NCBI GenBank assembly: GCA_018268315.1
Contig: JAFDWU010000004.1
Location: forward strand, 91,442-155,441
Direction of reading: 5' to 3'
Length of the DNA stretch: 64,000 nucleotides
Source of the DNA: Armatimonadota bacterium
GTDB lineage: Bacteria; Armatimonadota; Fimbriimonadia; Fimbriimonadales; Fimbriimonadaceae
Shown: piece after piece, positions 54,166 through 63,827 of the stretch
How positions within the stretch are numbered: position 1 is the first letter of the stretch
How the letters are laid out: the number at the start of each line of letters is the position of its first letter
Position numbers and translations under genes: made by a program
Notes under the pieces: generated by a model
What the model saw: only the letters and a program-made list of their open reading frames with translations
The model's database searches: none
Told to the model about the DNA's origin: nothing

Positions 54166-54774
54166 ATGGTGACCACGGTTTTTACGGATTTAGGCGGGGT
54201 TCTGCTCACGAATGGTTGGGACCGCACCGCGCGACGGCGCGCGGCGGAGCAGTTTAGCCTGGATTACGAAGACATGGACGAGCGGCATCACCTGACCTTT
54301 GATACCTACGAGATCGGCCGTCTGAGCCTGGACGAGTACCTGAACCGTGTCGTCTTCAACAAGCCTCGGGGATTCAGCCGCGAGGATTTCCGGGCATTTA
54401 TGTTCGCGCAATCCCAACCGATTCACGAAATGCTGGAGCTGATGCGCCAGGTGAAGCAGCATAACAGCGTCCGCATCGTAGCGATCAGTAACGAGGGGCG
54501 CGAGCTTGCCCAACACCGCATCGACGCCTTCCGCCTGCGCGATTTCATCGACGCCTTCTTCGTTTCCGGCTTCCTGCACATGCGCAAGCCGGATCGCTAC
54601 ATCTTCCTGACCGCCCTCGATGCGATTCAAGCGCCTCTGCAGGACTCGATCTACCTGGATGACCGGCTGCTGTTTGTCGAGATTGCGACGTCGCTGGGAA
54701 TGAACGCCTTCCAGCACGTGAAGTACGAAGAAACCCGCGATCGCCTGCTGAGCCTTGGCCTCAAGCTAGGTTAA
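54166..54774 (+). CDS. HAD superfamily hydrolase
   Basis: A 202-residue protein. Seen: motif I TTVFTDLGGVLL (nucleophile Asp; Gly replaces the second Asp as in many HAD phosphatase-like members), motif II RIVAISNEGRE (Ser), motif III Lys in MRKPDRYIF, and motif IV IYLDDR. The cap is short and helical. HAD enzymes are phosphatases, dehalogenases or epoxide-related enzymes; the DLGG form with YLDDR resembles the group of alpha-D-glucose-1-phosphatase/epoxide-hydrolase-N-terminal-like proteins (YihX type). The substrate is unknown. The 3' end overlaps the convergent fusion gene by 14 bp. Confidence 0.88.
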   Translation: MVTTVFTDLGGVLLTNGWDRTARRRAAEQFSLDYEDMDERHHLTFDTYEIGRLSLDEYLNRVVFNKPRGFSREDFRAFMFAQSQPIHEMLELMRQVKQHNSVRIVAISNEGRELAQHRIDAFRLRDFIDAFFVSGFLHMRKPDRYIFLTALDAIQAPLQDSIYLDDRLLFVEIATSLGMNAFQHVKYEETRDRLLSLGLKLG

Positions 54775-56857
54775 GCAGGAACTCGTTTAGGGCGTTCGTG
54801 ACGGCCTTGTCTTCATAGAGAGCGCTCACGTCGATGCCCTTCATGGCTTCGGCTAGGCGATCTGGACTGCATATAAGGTCGAGGTAGTCGTTCTCATCGC
54901 GGGCAATGAGCCCTTCCCCGCCGCATTGCTTCAGAAAGGCGTACGTATGCCTTCCGCGCATGAACTTACCGGGCAAAGTGACCACCGGGACGCCCACCGA
55001 GAGAGCCTGAATCGTGGTATTGCCTCCGCTCCACTCCGGCGGATCGATCGAGACCGACAGACATCGCGTGAGCGCCTCAAAGTCAAGTTCGGGCATTGAG
55101 CCGAGCAATACGTGATCCCCACCGCTACGGTTAAGTCTTTCCATCAGCACACGGTGCGGATATGGGTTGACGTTCGCTTGGAATACCACCGGCTTGCGCA
55201 GCCTCTCGGCTATCTGCGCCAGCAGTTCATCCCTCTCTGGCAGCCACTTGCTGGCGTTCTGAACCATGCCAACCAGATGGCCTTCTGGCAGTCCAAAATC
55301 CGCCCGTTTCTTGCCGGAGCTGCTTCGCTCGCGCCTCTCGATGAAGAGCCCGCTGCCCGGTAGCCGGACCAGCTTTTCTGTGTACTCAGCGTCCGCATCA
55401 TCGGGCTCCATCAGCTCAGACGACAGGTAGTAATCAATTTCGGAAAGTCCGCTTGTAACCGGATGCCCCCAGGCAGTGCACTGCACCGGCGCAAGACGGA
55501 AAGCGCCGAAGCGATAGCTATCTGGATGCATCCCGATATCCGTGAAGATGAGAACATCCAGACCAAGGGAGCGGACCCATTTCGCCGCCTCAAGACGGTC
55601 GCCACCGAGCAGGAAGTAATGATCGGCCGCTTGCTTCCACCTTAGGCTGACGGAGTCCTCTTTAGCGCCGACGTTGATCCCGTACGTCTCGATTTCCGGG
55701 CCGTGGTTCTTCAGCCAACCAAGCGCCCAACGAGACCCATTTGATCGCGTGAGATTGCCACTGATGTAACCGACCTTGAGCTTGCCGCTGCGCTTCCGCT
55801 CAATCGGTTGAAGCAATTCAGGCGCGACCGACTCGGCAATGCGCCGAATCAGCTTGCCATGCTTTTCCAGAATGGGCCGGACAGAGCGACCCTGGTACGC
55901 CAGGAAGAAAGTGTCGTGAAACGCGAGCGCTCGATATGCCTCATCGCCACGTATTTCGCGGGTCAGGAGGGCGTCAAGATCGGCTTCATAGCTCTGCCAG
56001 CACTCATCCATTTGGGCTTGGCTTTCATAGATTTGCGGTAGCCGCATCCGCGCCAAGGCTCTCAGCCACGTATCAGGTTTGACCAACGCGCGATAGCACG
56101 CGGCATCGCCTTCCGCAAGTGTTGCGTCAGCTTGTATCAGCGCGGGATCGGCGGGAATGTCGTTTGCCGGTCGCGGGCCCAAAGTCGGCTCAGTTCTTGG
56201 AAGCGGGTTGCCCTGCTCACTGGCGATCCACTCATCAAACGACTTGCCGGATTGGAAGTAGGAATCCAAAGCTCGTCCGAGTTCGAACACTCGAGCGTCC
56301 CCGGATTGCACTTGCGTGGAGTACAGTCCCGCAGCCACCGCATCGTAGGGAGCGGCGGCTCCAGGAAGAGAGCGGAGGCGAACGTCATCCTCAGGGTGCT
56401 GTCGCTGCCGCACGCAGTCCTCCACATTCAGGCTGAACCGGCGGCGGCAATCTAGCGGCCGCGCGGTGTAGACCGTGCATTCCTCGTTCAGAAGCAGGGG
56501 GCAATCAAATCGCGCCAAGCCTTCCGTGCCTCGTTTGAATGGCGCAAGATTGGCTACGTATTCCGAGCTGCGCTTCCGCAGGCTCGCCTGTTCTTCTGGG
56601 GAGAATGACTCCTCAATCGCGCCCACGATCGCCGCAAGTTCAAACTGAGAAACGAGAATTGACCTGCGGCAGCACTGTGCGCAACCGCGTCTGCAGTGCA
56701 GTTTCTCCTGGTGCTGAGCGATCGCGCTGGCGGATGCCTCATCGGCCATTAAATCCAGCTTGGTGATCAGCTTTTGACTACGCTCGGCGGTCAGCCCGCG
56801 GCGCAAAGCGCCATCGGCAAGCATGGCGGCGGTTTCGCGAAGAGCTTCGGGCTGCAC
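54761..56857 (-). CDS. fusion of YkgJ-type CxxCxxCC metal-binding domain with GT41 (O-GlcNAc-transferase-like) glycosyltransferase
   Basis: A 698-residue cytoplasmic protein with GTG start 56857. Seen: residues about 50-150 carry CRRGCAQCC and CPLLLNEECTVYTARPLDCRR, the full Cys pattern of the YkgJ/UPF0153 family that chelates Zn or an Fe-S cluster; a helical middle (about 200-350); then the GT41 core with KVGYISGNLTRSNGSRWALGW, CTAWGHPVTSGLSEIDYYLS, SIDPPEWSGGNTTIQALSVG and VPVVTLPGKFMRGRHTYAFL, equivalent to the UDP-binding blocks of SPINDLY/OGT. GT41 enzymes attach a sugar to Ser/Thr of proteins, usually recognising targets with TPR repeats; here TPRs are absent and the metal domain takes their place. 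TATAAT sits 7 nt before the GTG. I know of no described example of this pairing. Confidence 0.85.
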   Translation of the reverse strand: MQPEALRETAAMLADGALRRGLTAERSQKLITKLDLMADEASASAIAQHQEKLHCRRGCAQCCRRSILVSQFELAAIVGAIEESFSPEEQASLRKRSSEYVANLAPFKRGTEGLARFDCPLLLNEECTVYTARPLDCRRRFSLNVEDCVRQRQHPEDDVRLRSLPGAAAPYDAVAAGLYSTQVQSGDARVFELGRALDSYFQSGKSFDEWIASEQGNPLPRTEPTLGPRPANDIPADPALIQADATLAEGDAACYRALVKPDTWLRALARMRLPQIYESQAQMDECWQSYEADLDALLTREIRGDEAYRALAFHDTFFLAYQGRSVRPILEKHGKLIRRIAESVAPELLQPIERKRSGKLKVGYISGNLTRSNGSRWALGWLKNHGPEIETYGINVGAKEDSVSLRWKQAADHYFLLGGDRLEAAKWVRSLGLDVLIFTDIGMHPDSYRFGAFRLAPVQCTAWGHPVTSGLSEIDYYLSSELMEPDDADAEYTEKLVRLPGSGLFIERRERSSSGKKRADFGLPEGHLVGMVQNASKWLPERDELLAQIAERLRKPVVFQANVNPYPHRVLMERLNRSGGDHVLLGSMPELDFEALTRCLSVSIDPPEWSGGNTTIQALSVGVPVVTLPGKFMRGRHTYAFLKQCGGEGLIARDENDYLDLICSPDRLAEAMKGIDVSALYEDKAVTNALNEFLLNLA

Positions 56858-56864
56858 GACAGGA

Positions 56865-56870
56865 ATTATA
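56865..56870 (-). promoter_or_regulatory. perfect -10 TATAAT, 7 nt before GT41 fusion GTG
   Basis: Minus-strand TATAAT, 7 nt, then GTG 56857. The strongest hexamer among the start-proximal set. The gap to the divergent gene at 56893 is only 35 bp. Confidence 0.6.
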
Positions 56871-56892
56871 GTTCGGTATTCTGCCTCTGCCG

Positions 56893-59289
56893 ATGGATGA
56901 TTTCTCCTTTGAAAGCCCAGAACTCACCAGTTCGCATACGCTGATGGAGTTCGGCAATGGGGGGCGCATTTCGCGACTGTGGGTTATCGACCCCAACCAC
57001 ATCGGAGAAGACAACGAGCTTCAGACGGTGATGCCAAATCTGCCGGTTGAAGCCGAATTTACCGAGGACTACTACCCCGGCACCATCCTGATTGGCGCGC
57101 GCGCCAACCCCCATGAGCCATGGATCGTAAGCCGTAACATCGACGCCGCCCAAGAAGAAGGAGACCTTGAGCCGAACCAGGTGACGTTCAATTACGAATT
57201 CGCTTTTCTTTCTGAAATCCGGGCCACCGGCCGGTTCTACGAAGTACAGAACCCAATCCCGCACGTGGCGTGGGACGTGACGATCACCAACGATGGCGAC
57301 AACGCCCTTGAAATTGGCGAACTCGCATTCCCAATGGGCTTTGACAACATCCTTTATGGTTTTCCAACCACTACCGAGGGCATCCGGCGAATGTGGCGCG
57401 AGAAGTTCCACATCCACAAGTTCATTGGCGGCTCGGGAAGCTATCTGCACGTGCAGCTTCTGAATGGGGAATCGCCTGGCTTGCTGGTCTGCCCCGGCGC
57501 GAACACATCGTGGGAGTTTTACAATCACGCCAGCGCAACGCTGACCAGCAGCTACCGTTCGGAGGGGGTGCCAATCGTGTATGCCCACTCGGTGGCCACT
57601 CTTGATCGGGAGGGATGGAAGCCGTGGTTCAACGGCCACACTTCCGCTTTTCTTGCCCCTGGAGAATCGCGCACATTCCAGACTCTTTTCGCACCCATCG
57701 GCGAGAAGGGCACCGGCTTGCACGAGACGTTGGCAAAGCTGCGTCGCCCCGCGTTTAAGCTGCTGCCTGGCGCGGTGGCGCCGGCATCCGTGGGCATCGC
57801 GGTGGAAGTCACCGGCGTGACGCCCGCCCGATTTACCGCCGACGTAGACGCGGAGCTTGAGAAGGACTCCGACGAATTTGGCGGGTTCTGCTTTGTAAAA
57901 CCAGAGCAGCCTGGCGCGCTATCACTACAGATGACGGACACGCGAGAGCTGTCCTCCATGGTCCATCTGGTCTTCACGAAGGAGATCGACGAGCTGATTC
58001 AAAAGCGGGCGGACTGGATTTTGCTTCACCAAGTGTATCGAGGCGACGGACAGTGGAAGGGCGGAATCGCGCCATGCGATAACGACACCCTCTCGCCCAT
58101 CATCGACACTGACGAGAGCGGCGGCGTCATCCTTGGATCGCTTGCCGACACACTTTTCCTTGCCGAGAAGAACCTGATTGTCCCTAACCCGCTGGAAATC
58201 GAAGCGCTTGTAGGAGCGCTGGCGTTCATTCGCAAATGGATTCATAACCCCGGCGACCACTCCGTGGGCAGCGTATTTGGCTTGACCGAGGGCGTGGCAA
58301 CAAACCGCTCGCGAGCAAAGCACTATCAGGTTCTGGCTGCCATTTATGACGCCATGGGCAAGCTCTCCGCAGAAACCGGGTTACTGGATCCGAACCCTGA
58401 CTGGTATCGCCTGGAATCCGAAGCGGTGCTGGCAGCGGCGTCCACATTTGCCGATCCGCTTGAGCTAACGTTTGAAGCCTTCTCTCTCCCCTGGCTTTCT
58501 CCGCTGATTCGAAGCCTCTCGCCGACGATTGGCGAAGCGCAAATGCTTGCCGGAAGGTCGAGCGCGCCAAGCTGGTGGTGGTATGCCGGAGATAAGAACT
58601 GGCCGGACCTGGCGACCAGCTACACGCACGACAAAGGAGAGCAGTGCCTATCCGCTTCAAATGCCTCTAACGCGCGGCAGCTCCTTGCTGGACTTCGCGA
58701 TGGCGTCAGCGCGGACGAATTAAAGGTGCGACTTGCGTTTGGCGGACTCTTGAGCGTGTGGGCATTGGTCCAGGAGGATGGCGCGGCCGCAGACAGTTAT
58801 TGCCCCGATTCCGCTTCGCGCGACCTGGGAATGAGCAGCACTACCGGCGTCTCTGGCCTTGCCCTGTCGGCGTATCTACAGAATGCCCGCTCTCTGGTCT
58901 TCCATGGCGCCAACCAGGGTTCGCTTGGATGCCATGCGACGGTGGAGATGATCGACGAGGTCGAGCATTTGGTTATCAAGCCCTGGGATGGTGTGCGCCA
59001 GCGCATCGAGGTTTACGGCCTCGGGGTTTCGATACGCGTACGCGGCGCTGCGATTGCGGAAATGCAGATTCAGACCGACAAGCAGCGCATGAAACTGACT
59101 CTGCGCAATGTCTCGCAAGTCGGCCGCAAGGTCGCAATGGAGATTAACGGGCTCTGGGGCCGGGCGGCTGAGGCGAATGGGCAAGAGCTAAATTTCGTCC
59201 CCGGTAGTGATGCGGGCGGATATTTTTCTTACAATTCATCCATTAAGCCGCTTGAAGAGACCACAATCGAAATAAAGGTGATTCAATGA
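56893..59289 (+). CDS. large glycosidase-like protein, possibly DUF5695-related
   Basis: A 798-residue protein, ATG 56893. Seen: an N-terminal all-beta region of about 300 residues (SSHTLMEFGNGGRISRLWVID... HVAWDVTITNDGDNALEIGELAF) resembling the beta-sandwich that precedes (alpha/alpha)6 glycosidases; a middle helical domain with ADWILLHQVYRGDGQWKGGIAPCDNDT, then SSAPSWWWYAGDKNWPDL; and a C-terminal beta domain. No signal peptide. From memory it resembles the DUF5695 group; that is uncertain. Tentatively a cytoplasmic sugar-active enzyme. It is divergent from the GT41 fusion and is coupled by ATGA to the following small membrane gene. Confidence 0.75.
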   Translation: MDDFSFESPELTSSHTLMEFGNGGRISRLWVIDPNHIGEDNELQTVMPNLPVEAEFTEDYYPGTILIGARANPHEPWIVSRNIDAAQEEGDLEPNQVTFNYEFAFLSEIRATGRFYEVQNPIPHVAWDVTITNDGDNALEIGELAFPMGFDNILYGFPTTTEGIRRMWREKFHIHKFIGGSGSYLHVQLLNGESPGLLVCPGANTSWEFYNHASATLTSSYRSEGVPIVYAHSVATLDREGWKPWFNGHTSAFLAPGESRTFQTLFAPIGEKGTGLHETLAKLRRPAFKLLPGAVAPASVGIAVEVTGVTPARFTADVDAELEKDSDEFGGFCFVKPEQPGALSLQMTDTRELSSMVHLVFTKEIDELIQKRADWILLHQVYRGDGQWKGGIAPCDNDTLSPIIDTDESGGVILGSLADTLFLAEKNLIVPNPLEIEALVGALAFIRKWIHNPGDHSVGSVFGLTEGVATNRSRAKHYQVLAAIYDAMGKLSAETGLLDPNPDWYRLESEAVLAAASTFADPLELTFEAFSLPWLSPLIRSLSPTIGEAQMLAGRSSAPSWWWYAGDKNWPDLATSYTHDKGEQCLSASNASNARQLLAGLRDGVSADELKVRLAFGGLLSVWALVQEDGAAADSYCPDSASRDLGMSSTTGVSGLALSAYLQNARSLVFHGANQGSLGCHATVEMIDEVEHLVIKPWDGVRQRIEVYGLGVSIRVRGAAIAEMQIQTDKQRMKLTLRNVSQVGRKVAMEINGLWGRAAEANGQELNFVPGSDAGGYFSYNSSIKPLEETTIEIKVIQ

Positions 59290-59803: not shown

Positions 59804-60697
59804 ATGAGTAATGTAGACAAGGTGCTGGTGCTCGGATGCGCTGGCATGTTAGGCCATAAAATCTTTTGCGAACTGAACGCGCGGGGAGCAAATGTAATCG
59901 GGACCGTCCGGTGGGAGAATCCGCCCGAGCCGCTTTCCAAAGTTCCTTTCCTCCAAGCCAAGAATGTTCTGCGAGGCATCGACGCCGGGGACCTCGACCT
60001 TCTCACCCGTATCCTGCAGCACGAGCGGCCCGGCATCATCGTCAACTGCGTCGGCGTGATCAAGCAGAGAGGCGAAAGCCATGAGGCAATCCCTAGCATC
60101 AAGATCAATTCGCTGCTGCCTCATGTGCTTGCCGAGAAGGCAAACGCCTACGGCGGCAAAGTCATCCATTTCTCTACCGACTGCGTCTTCAGCGGCAAAG
60201 ACGGACTCTACGAGGAAGACTCGTTCGCGGATGCCGACGACCTTTACGGCCGTTCAAAGTTCCTCGGAGAACTCCACGATAAGAATTCGCTCACTCTGCG
60301 AACATCCATCATTGGCCGGGAGCTTAGCAACTTCGCCTCCCTGCTGGAGTGGTTCTTGAGTCAGGAGGGACGCTGCAACGGGTATCGGAAGGTAATCTAT
60401 TCGGGCGTAACCACGAACTACCTGGCCGCGCGCGTTGCCGACCTCATTGCCGACGATCTGCCAATCCGAGGCTTATATCAGGTAGCGGGCTCGCCGATCA
60501 GTAAGTTCGAGTTGCTCAGGAAGCTCAAGTCTGCCTATCAAAAGGACATCGAGATTGATCCGGTGGATGAGCCGGCGCACGATAAGAGCCTTATCGGAGA
60601 TAGGTTTGAAGCCGAGACCGGCTACAAGACTCCTTCCTGGGACGACATGGTTTACGAAATGGCCGCGGACGAAACTCCATACGCCGACTGGAGATAG
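59804..60697 (+). CDS. wbjC: SDR reductase, WbjC/FnlB/CapF type (UDP-FucNAc pathway)
   Basis: A 297-residue Rossmann enzyme of the RmlD-like group. Seen: VLVLGCAGMLGHKIFCEL (NAD(P) site), IVNCVGVIKQRGESHEA, HFSTDCVFSGKDG and the catalytic YxxxK in YGRSKFLGEL. In the UDP-N-acetyl-L-fucosamine route (P. aeruginosa O11 WbjBCD, S. aureus CapEFG) this enzyme reduces the 4-keto hexose formed by the 4,6-dehydratase/epimerase. The other two enzymes follow at 61642 and 62703 in the same operon, which makes the assignment stronger than the sequence alone. CapF also has a C-terminal cupin domain, which is lacking here. It abuts the epimerase at 60698. Confidence 0.85.
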   Translation: MSNVDKVLVLGCAGMLGHKIFCELNARGANVIGTVRWENPPEPLSKVPFLQAKNVLRGIDAGDLDLLTRILQHERPGIIVNCVGVIKQRGESHEAIPSIKINSLLPHVLAEKANAYGGKVIHFSTDCVFSGKDGLYEEDSFADADDLYGRSKFLGELHDKNSLTLRTSIIGRELSNFASLLEWFLSQEGRCNGYRKVIYSGVTTNYLAARVADLIADDLPIRGLYQVAGSPISKFELLRKLKSAYQKDIEIDPVDEPAHDKSLIGDRFEAETGYKTPSWDDMVYEMAADETPYADWR

Positions 60698-61645
60698 ATG
60701 AAAGTTCTTGTTACTGGGGGAGCGGGCTTTATAGGCTCGAACATCGTTCGACGCCTCGTTGATCGTGGCGATCAGGTTACGGTGATCGATAACCTGCAAT
60801 CTGGCTACGCGCAAAACCTCGATCCCTTCCCCACCGTCAACTTCATCCATGGCGACATCCGCAGTGAATCGTCGATGAATCAGGCAATGGAGGGTATCGA
60901 CGTGGTGTTTCACCTCGCCGCCTCCGTGGGCAACAAGCGCTCCATCGACATGCCGATGGACGATGCGGAAACAAATGTGCTTGGCACTATTCAAGTTCTG
61001 GAAGCCATGCGAAAGCACGGCGCGAAGCGGATTGTCGCTTCAAGCTCCGCAGGCATTTTTGGCGAGCTGAAAACTCTGCCGATTGCTGAGCAGCACCAAG
61101 TCGAGCCAGATTCGCCTTACGGTGCAACGAAGCTGGCGATGGAGAAGCTGTGCCTGGCTTACGCGAAGCTCTACGATATGGACGCGGTTTGTCTGCGCTA
61201 CTTCAACGTATTCGGGCCGAACCAGCGCTTTGACGCCTACGGCAACGTCATCCCGATTTTCGTATTCAAAATGCTGCGCGGCGAGGGCCTAACCATCTTC
61301 GGCGACGGCGAGCAGACGCGCGACTTCATCCACGTTGACGATGTCGTGCAAGCCAACCTGAAGGGCGCGGATGCGCCGAAGGGCGTGAGCGGCGCCTTCA
61401 ACCTTGGCAGCGGAGAGCGCATTTCCATCAACAACCTGGTGAAGAAGATTCAGGAGCTTGCGGGGCGCGAAGTGCGGTACGAATATGGCCCGCCGCGCGC
61501 CGGAGACGTGCGCGACAGCCTCGCCGACTTCACCAAAGCAACCAAGGAACTTGGCTTTAAGCCGCAAGTAGAGTTTAATGAAGGTCTGAGGAACTACATT
61601 CAATGGGCGGAGAAAGAGGCAGCGCAACCGGTGGGCAGCCGATGA
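60698..61645 (+). CDS. NAD-dependent sugar epimerase (UDP-Glc/UDP-GlcNAc 4-epimerase type)
   Basis: A 315-residue SDR starting at the base after the preceding TAG. Seen: KVLVTGGAGFIGSNIVRRL (NAD site), VVFHLAASVGNKRSID, SSSAGIFGE, catalytic YGATK, LRYFNVFGPNQRFDAYG and DFIHVDDVVQANLKG. Long-chain SDR of the GalE/WbpP family, which converts UDP-GlcNAc to UDP-GalNAc or UDP-Glc to UDP-Gal in surface polysaccharide synthesis. The stop overlaps the next start by ATGA at 61642-61645. It could also be a 4,6-dehydratase-related or a uronate epimerase; the sequence does not separate these. Confidence 0.85.
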   Translation: MKVLVTGGAGFIGSNIVRRLVDRGDQVTVIDNLQSGYAQNLDPFPTVNFIHGDIRSESSMNQAMEGIDVVFHLAASVGNKRSIDMPMDDAETNVLGTIQVLEAMRKHGAKRIVASSSAGIFGELKTLPIAEQHQVEPDSPYGATKLAMEKLCLAYAKLYDMDAVCLRYFNVFGPNQRFDAYGNVIPIFVFKMLRGEGLTIFGDGEQTRDFIHVDDVVQANLKGADAPKGVSGAFNLGSGERISINNLVKKIQELAGREVRYEYGPPRAGDVRDSLADFTKATKELGFKPQVEFNEGLRNYIQWAEKEAAQPVGSR

Positions 61646-62706
61646 ACAAGCCGTTCGATGGCAAACGCCTGCTGATAACCGGCGGCACCGGCTCGCTTGG
61701 CAAAACGCTGCTGAGACGCCTGCTCGGCGGCGCGATGGGCGATCCCGCCAAGATCATCATCTACTCGCGAGACGAAGCAAAGCAGCATTACATGCGGATG
61801 GAATATCTGCACCGCAGCGCGGCGACCGACGAAGTCATCTACCGCAATTTCCTTTCCAAGCTGGAATTCCGCATCGGCGATATTCGCGATATCGACAGCG
61901 TTGCCACCGTTCTGCGAGACGCCGACATCGTTTTCAACGCCGCCGCCATGAAGCAGGTGCCGACCTGCGAGTACTACCCCTACGAGGCGGTTAAGACCAA
62001 CATCGAGGGCGCAGAAAACATCGTCCTTGCCATCTCCCGCCACAACCTGAACGTCGAGACCGTCATCGGCATCTCCACCGACAAGGCATGCAAGCCCGTC
62101 AACGTGATGGGGATGACGAAGGCCATCCAGGAACGCATCTTCATCCAGGGCAACATGCGCTGCCCCAAAACCCGCTTTGTGTGCGTTCGCTACGGCAACG
62201 TGCTTGCCTCGCGCGGCTCGGTAATTCCGCTATTCCACGACCAGATTAAGAACGGCGGACCGGTAACGGTCACTACACCGGATATGACGCGCTTCCTGCT
62301 AAGCCTGGACGATGCGGTGGACACCGTTTTCGCCGCCTATAATGATGGCAGCCCCGGCGATATCTACGTCCCTCGCGCGCCATCGGCGCTCGTCCTGAAC
62401 GTGGCCAAGGCGCTGATTGCGGACCGCAATATTCGGCTGGACATCACCGGCATCCGCCCGGGCGAGAAGATTCACGAGATCATGGTGAGCGACGAAGAAG
62501 CCCACCGCGCGGTGCTGGCGGGCGCCTGGTACGCCATTAAGGCGATGCTGCCGGAGATTGTGGATGAGCCGGTGATTCCGGTTCTGAACAAGGAGTACAG
62601 CTCTGGCGATGAGGTGCTTGATCTTGACGGCACCATCGACCTGCTGAAACGCCACCGCCTGATGCTGGAAGATGTGGCCACTGAAGTTGGGGAAACTCTG
62701 CGTTGA
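61642..62706 (+). CDS. wbjB: inverting UDP-GlcNAc 4,6-dehydratase/5-epimerase, WbjB/FnlA/CapE type
   Basis: About 354 residues from ATG 61642 within the ATGA overlap. Seen: RLLITGGTGSLGKTLLRRL, IFNAAAMKQVPTCEYYPYEAVKTNI, the catalytic MGMTK (MxxxK, the Met-for-Tyr substitution typical of the inverting dehydratases PseB, FlaA1 and CapE), FVCVRYGNVLASRGSVIPLF and FLLSLDDAVDTV. It makes the 4-keto-6-deoxy sugar that WbjC reduces and WbjD epimerises to UDP-L-FucNAc. The 62703 gene follows by a TTGA overlap. Function is well supported by motif and context. Confidence 0.9.
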   Translation: MNKPFDGKRLLITGGTGSLGKTLLRRLLGGAMGDPAKIIIYSRDEAKQHYMRMEYLHRSAATDEVIYRNFLSKLEFRIGDIRDIDSVATVLRDADIVFNAAAMKQVPTCEYYPYEAVKTNIEGAENIVLAISRHNLNVETVIGISTDKACKPVNVMGMTKAIQERIFIQGNMRCPKTRFVCVRYGNVLASRGSVIPLFHDQIKNGGPVTVTTPDMTRFLLSLDDAVDTVFAAYNDGSPGDIYVPRAPSALVLNVAKALIADRNIRLDITGIRPGEKIHEIMVSDEEAHRAVLAGAWYAIKAMLPEIVDEPVIPVLNKEYSSGDEVLDLDGTIDLLKRHRLMLEDVATEVGETLR

Positions 62707-63827
62707 AGGTCATGACCATTCTGGGCACCCGCCCGGAGATCATCCGCCTAAGCCTGGTCATTAAGCTTCTCGATGAGTTCGCCGAGGAGCACATCTTGGT
62801 CCACACCGGCCAGAACTTCGACGACCGCCTAAGCAAGATATTCTTCGAGCAGCTTCAGGTGCGAGAGCCGGATTACCACATGAATGTGCGCGGCGCGGGC
62901 TTCAGCGACCAGATAGGGCAGATACTCACCCAGTCCGAGGCGTGCTTCCGCAAATTCAAGCCGGATCGCCTCCTGATTCTGGGCGATACGAACAGCGGCC
63001 TCAGCGCCATCGTCGCGCGAAGAATGGGCATTCCGGTGTATCACATGGAAGCCGGCAACCGATGCTTTGACGACCGCGTGCCGGAAGAAGTGAATCGGCG
63101 GGTGATCGATCACAGCAGCTCGATCCTGATGCCGTACACCCACAACAGCAAAGAAAATTTGATGCGCGAGGGCATCGCTCAGGACCGCCTGTACGTGACC
63201 GGCAACCCGATTTTCGAGGTGCTGGAGGCGTTCACACCCCAAATTAACGCCAGCGAGGCGATGAAAACCTACGGCGTGGAGAAGGGCAAGTTCTTCCTGG
63301 TGACCCTGCACCGCTCCGAGAACGTGGATCACGAAGGGCGCCTGAAGAACTTCTTAGAGGGTCTGAAGCGGCTGCACAAAGCGTATGGCTTCCCGATCAT
63401 CGGCTCGCTTCACCCGCGGACACGAGATAAGATTGCCGCCTTCGGCATCGACCCGAAGGCGTATGGCATCACCTTCGTAGAACCCCTGAGTTTCTTCGAT
63501 TTTGTGAACCTTGAAAAGAACGCCTTCTGCCTGCTTTCCGATAGCGGCACCGTGCAAGAGGAAGGCTGCATCTTCGGTGTGCCGAACGTGACGATCCGCG
63601 ACGTGACCGAGCGGCCGGAGACGGTGGAGTGCGGCTCCAACATCCTAACCGGCGCCGAGCCGGAAGGCATCGAGCGCGCGGTGAAGATGGTCACCCGCGT
63701 GGCGGGCGGCTGGAATCCGCCGGTCGAGTATCTTGCGCCGAAGGTCTCGGAAACCGTCGGGCGCATCGTTTTAAGCTACCGGCTCCCTGATCATGCGGAG
63801 CTGCTTTATCGTCAAAGCAAGAACTAG
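62703..63827 (+). CDS. wbjD: UDP-N-acetylglucosamine 2-epimerase family, WbjD/FnlC/CapG type
   Basis: A 374-residue GT-B-fold epimerase starting at TTG 62703 inside TTGA. Seen: KVMTILGTRPEIIRLSLVI, HTGQNFDDRLSKIFFEQL, LGDTNSGLSAIVARR, YHMEAGNRCFDDRVPEEVNRR (the WbjD/CapG-like form of the 2-epimerase signature), HRSENVD and LLSDSGTVQEEGCIFGVPN. It converts the last intermediate at C2 to give UDP-N-acetyl-L-fucosamine. The three pathway enzymes are consecutive except for the inserted 4-epimerase. After the stop there is a 76-nt stretch before the NeuD-like gene. Confidence 0.92.
   Translation: MKVMTILGTRPEIIRLSLVIKLLDEFAEEHILVHTGQNFDDRLSKIFFEQLQVREPDYHMNVRGAGFSDQIGQILTQSEACFRKFKPDRLLILGDTNSGLSAIVARRMGIPVYHMEAGNRCFDDRVPEEVNRRVIDHSSSILMPYTHNSKENLMREGIAQDRLYVTGNPIFEVLEAFTPQINASEAMKTYGVEKGKFFLVTLHRSENVDHEGRLKNFLEGLKRLHKAYGFPIIGSLHPRTRDKIAAFGIDPKAYGITFVEPLSFFDFVNLEKNAFCLLSDSGTVQEEGCIFGVPNVTIRDVTERPETVECGSNILTGAEPEGIERAVKMVTRVAGGWNPPVEYLAPKVSETVGRIVLSYRLPDHAELLYRQSKN

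Follow-up and report, generated by a model that had tools for sequence, protein, structure and literature searches.

Enzymes of glycosyltransferase family 41 (GT41), such as OGT, SPINDLY (SPY) and NGT, choose their substrates via N-terminal helical domains. The YkgJ family of cysteine-rich proteins is widespread and little studied; our literature search yielded no function for YkgJ itself and no paper pairing YkgJ with a GT41 enzyme. The catalytic lysine of GT41 has been assigned to K341 in the Thermobaculum enzyme TtOGT (PMC4683255), and to K665 and K842 in SPY and OGT, respectively, which also have a threonine near the phosphates (PMC9715652).

The protein described here combines features of both families. 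It is encoded in a 64,000-nucleotide stretch of DNA from a Fimbriimonadaceae bacterium (Armatimonadota), hereafter the window. Its GT-B core finds its best solved matches in TtOGT (5djs) and Xanthomonas XcOGT (2jlb), with K537 in the place of TtOGT K341, but these enzymes have a TPR N-terminus instead of the eight-cysteine module found here and are only ~20% identical. The SPINDLY O-fucosyltransferase and human OGT share the GT41 fold, the catalytic lysine and the threonine near the phosphates (PMC9715652), but carry a long TPR superhelix, and the region of their active-site histidine is variable in the fusions. The soluble N-glucosyltransferases of the HMW1C/NGT type likewise have a helical domain ahead of the GT-B core and are weakly matched by the NCBIfam NGT model, although the scores are 20–36 versus 1000 bits and no cysteine module is reported in NGTs (PMC10507012). 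The nearest glycosyltransferase sequences outside the clade are ‘SPINDLY family’ GT41 proteins from cyanobacteria and proteobacteria (30%–36% identity), which, however, show no cysteine motif in any of the 115 ORFs examined and in which TPRs are expected. Finally, the N-terminus displays the eight-cysteine pattern of the YkgJ/CxxCxxCC family (PF03692), including CP..L...C..Y..RP..C. The fusion would represent a natural swap of the N-terminal domain for a cysteine-cluster module, opening to test whether protein glycosylation can be steered by Fe-S or metal status, and would provide the first functional context for the YkgJ family.

A glycosyltransferase with an unusual N-terminus

The initial annotation had placed a YkgJ-type cysteine pattern and an OGT/SPINDLY-like core in one continuous frame, and this description is accurate down to the coordinates (Table 1): the gene is a single intact frame without internal stops. 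Both families are also recovered in the one protein by Pfam, above their curated cut-offs, with Glyco_transf_41 (PF13844) matched at 1.8e-13 and scoring 50 bits where 25 suffice. A paralogue encoded in the same genome likewise exceeds the PF13844 cut-off (34.4 bits).

Table 1. Features of the fusion gene and its upstream region (window coordinates)
Feature	Position	Strand	Description
Full fusion gene	54761..56857	-	GTG start, 698 aa; YkgJ-type cysteine module and GT41-like glycosyltransferase
N-terminal module	56222..56857	-	Residues 1-212; helical, eight invariant cysteines
Metal-site stretch (putative)	56411..56695	-	Residues 55-149: C55, C59, C62, C63, C119, C127, C137, C148
Linker	56147..56221	-	Residues 213-237; pLDDT below 50 at 221-232
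Helical domain	55808..56146	-	Residues 238-350, between module and GT-B core
GT-B catalytic core	54764..55795	-	Residues 355-698
Sigma-70-like promoter	56865..56893	-	TCGGCA-17-TATAAT; 10/12 matches, TATAAT perfect; ends 7 bp before GTG

Judged from its sequence, the glycosyltransferase part is a divergent relative of GT41. Among solved structures, TtOGT is the closest in sequence (5djs; 2.3e-23), and the best 50 matches in a Foldseek search against the PDB are all GT41 structures (OGT, XcOGT, TtOGT, SPY and NGT; top match 1.3e-24). K537, which aligns with residue 341 of 5djs (K341M in that structure), is invariant in all ten fusions identified in this study, as are H413, Q533, D605, W609, T615 and R634 of the GT-B core, whereas residues 367–376, corresponding to the region carrying the active-site histidine in OGT and SPY, vary among them. 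The match to the NCBIfam NGT model (NF049992) reaches 20.3 bits, far below the equivalog cut-off of 1000.

The AlphaFold model of the whole protein (pLDDT 90.9), the kind of model that the initial annotation had called for, shows the module as a unit of its own, predicted with confidence and joined by a disordered linker to the helical domain and the GT-B core. Homologues from outside the fusion clade mostly align from residues 240–300 onwards, indicating that the helical domain is common to both and that the module lies upstream of it. No TPR family appears in the Pfam result for the window protein, the module occupying that end; it thus sits, as had been proposed, at the N-terminal place held by TPRs in other GT41 enzymes. 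The accompanying statement that normal GT41 enzymes use TPRs holds for the OGT/SPY type but not for the HMW1C/NGT type, which uses a helical domain instead (PMC10507012).

The reading that we favour, with moderate confidence, is that a YkgJ-type metal module replaces the TPRs of a GT41-like protein glycosyltransferase or, alternatively, supplements its acceptor-recognition region, serving acceptor recognition or gating. The enzyme would be cytoplasmic and nucleotide-sugar-dependent, carrying a complete YkgJ-type metal-binding protein at the end where its OGT/SPY-type relatives carry TPR repeats. The module may dock or select the acceptor protein in their stead, with its sequence varying around a fixed metal core; the cluster would keep the module folded and might also let it sense iron or oxygen. 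Sugar transfer would be left to the GT-B core, following the inverting mechanism usual for GT41, and the acceptor would be a protein other than flagellin, perhaps a pilin or another surface protein.

The eight-cysteine module and its possible roles

The PF03692 match of the window protein spans residues 54–140 (4.8e-05, 24.4 bits against a curated cut-off of 23), and two other fusions score 33.1 bits (G076, above the cut-off) and 19.4 bits (G077a, below it). Taken alone, the match is marginal, but the conservation of eight cysteines confirms the assignment. All eight are invariant in 10 of the 10 fusions, whereas the remaining six cysteines of the window protein (C254, C286, C460, C599, C645 and C663) vary. 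When 24 fused and stand-alone modules with 19%–31% identity to the window copy are compared, no columns are invariant other than those of the eight cysteines and of G58, P120, R133 and P134. The leading motif is CX3CX2CC rather than a literal CxxCxxCC. Beyond the Pfam stretch, nearly the full length of a stand-alone YkgJ-type protein (~240 aa) aligns collinearly with the module. Its AlphaFold model is confident and mostly helical (pLDDT 93.1, pTM 0.88), and this predicted fold found no match at E ≤ 0.001 among the PDB structures searched.

The eight cysteines likely bind a metal, an Fe-S cluster being the best candidate. Such binding is plausible because the related CX4CX3CC motif of Salmonella FliB, a protein with eight conserved cysteines, binds a [4Fe-4S] cluster (PMC8598068). 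Of the initial proposal of an N-terminal metal or Fe-S domain, the cysteine site stands, being intact and conserved, while the ligand itself is likely only by analogy with FliB (PMC8598068).

Outside the cysteines the module is considerably more variable than the enzyme to which it is attached. Across the ten fusions, identity averages 32% for the module versus 47% for the GT-B core; between the window protein and its paralogue from the same genome it is 28% and 54%, respectively. An invariant cysteine core within a variable remainder would equally suit a module that is purely structural, binding zinc or an Fe-S cluster without any sensing and serving to stabilize the N-terminus or to mediate oligomerization; the glycosyltransferase-only (GT-only) paralogue located directly downstream of two fusions is compatible with hetero-oligomers. 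We regard this explanation as possible, if doubtful.

A regulatory version, in line with the redox- or metal-dependent glycosylation suggested by the initial annotation, whereby the Fe-S cluster switches acceptor binding or the activity of the core, so that glycosylation answers to oxygen or iron and the GT-only paralogues act as unregulated partners, is attractive but seems unlikely. The existence of GT-only paralogues, which also counts against the favoured reading, suggests that catalysis does not require the cluster in all members; the module may be dispensable in some copies or provided in trans.

More unlikely still is a bifunctional modifier, in which the module, as an Fe-S methyltransferase of the FliB kind, would act on the very protein glycosylated by the GT core. 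FliB, which modifies a protein and has eight conserved cysteines (PMC8598068), is the sole characterized protein with a related motif to emerge from the literature search, and stand-alone modules exist. However, membership in the FliB family was rejected because the corresponding NCBIfam model (NF038110) has no match in the window's genome, even at E = 10; moreover, the motif spacing differs (CX3CX2CC versus CX4CX3CC), the module spans ~212 aa compared with 373 positions in the FliB model, and flagellin, on which FliB acts, is missing in two of the genomes with fusions.

Stand-alone YkgJ-type genes are also present in the window's genome, where four of them, each encoding ~240–260 aa with the motif, are arranged in tandem (L031:10684-14017; G000:C2:355.7-359.0 kb), with a galactokinase-like gene on one side and a small unknown gene on the other. 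No glycosyltransferase partner was seen in the neighbourhoods of stand-alone modules that were inspected.

Genomic context and candidate acceptors

Inspection of the window and the other fusion loci revealed no conserved operon, RiPP context or common partner gene, and a defence system was rejected for want of a PADLOC hit. In the window, the neighbours of the fusion gene are a convergent gene for a HAD hydrolase and a divergent DUF5695 gene. The divergent starts are 35 bp apart (56857-56893), and the putative promoter of the fusion gene shares bases with the DUF5695 start codon. The promoter ends so close to the GTG codon (Table 1) that its position suggests a leaderless mRNA. About 3 kb away, on the opposite strand, starts a sugar-nucleotide set (59804-63827, plus strand) encoding an RmlD-like reductase, an NAD epimerase, a CapD-like dehydratase and a UDP-GlcNAc 2-epimerase, which may serve to make a UDP-FucNAc-like sugar; the set is close to the fusion gene, not evidently linked with it.

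That the fusion is simply a flagellin glycosyltransferase with an unusual N-terminus appears highly improbable. The window's genome does have four flagellins, and TPR-type GT41 genes of Fimbriimonadaceae often lie within a few kilobases of flagellin genes. By contrast, the fusion is 49 kb from flagellin in G000:C8 and at least 13 kb in G019:C46, among the flagellins listed, and flagellin was rejected as a general target because two fusion-bearing genomes, G076 (99% complete) and G012, are devoid of both flagellin and FliF. The GT41 genes adjoining flagellin are often in tandem (G009:C1:668-677 kb, G082:C6:56-63 kb, G088:C118, G091:C1:267-274 kb and G107:C24) and likely represent flagellin glycosylation islands. 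PilM is encoded in five of the five fusion-bearing genomes, leaving pilins or pseudopilins as possible acceptors.

Distribution and evolution of the fusion

Ten distinct fusion proteins were identified in five independent assemblies of Fimbriimonadaceae from four genera: two in the window's genome (G000), four in G019, two in G077 and one each in G012 and G076. Searches of 291 Armatimonadota genomes with the fusion alignment found no matches at E ≤ 1e-60 outside Fimbriimonadaceae. When 84,980 species genomes were scanned with two peptide patterns, an approach reaching only relatives that carry them, 207 relatives emerged, and among the 80 loci kept the cysteine motif is found in those from Armatimonadota only. 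With the listed fusions set aside, none of the 115 ORFs at the examined loci contains the motif. The fusion is real and conserved and, as far as these searches reach, a new combination of domains.

Both parts also occur separately in Fimbriimonadaceae, but an origin of the fused frame by misassembly, by a frameshift (the two dangers that the initial annotation had named) or by accidental read-through from one gene into the next is hardly credible and is refuted by the fusion-bearing relatives, given the identical architecture in independent assemblies, the second copy (41% identity) elsewhere in the window's genome and a linker that continues in one frame without stops.

In the phylogeny of the glycosyltransferase part, the fusions and three GT-only proteins form a single clade (100/100 support), which adjoins cyanobacterial and proteobacterial sequences without the module. 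The GT-only copies, present in G019 and probably also in G012, where the copy runs to the contig edge and is hence less sure, are nested inside the fusions. On the other side of the tree, a Fimbriimonadaceae relative (L052) has strong TPR matches in Pfam; L052 alone was scanned, the TPR label on the other rows being based on length and relationship. The tree topology fits one gain of the module with later losses, yet requires three label changes, and the module tree, with its long branches and weak support (69/66), is too weak to settle the matter. In G019 (L033:6482-12357; G019:C59), three GT41-like genes nearly overlap, two with the cysteine module followed by one without it. In G076, a GT41-like gene (L157:6913-9201; G076:C97:46912-48246) is split by two in-frame stops and is probably a pseudogene.
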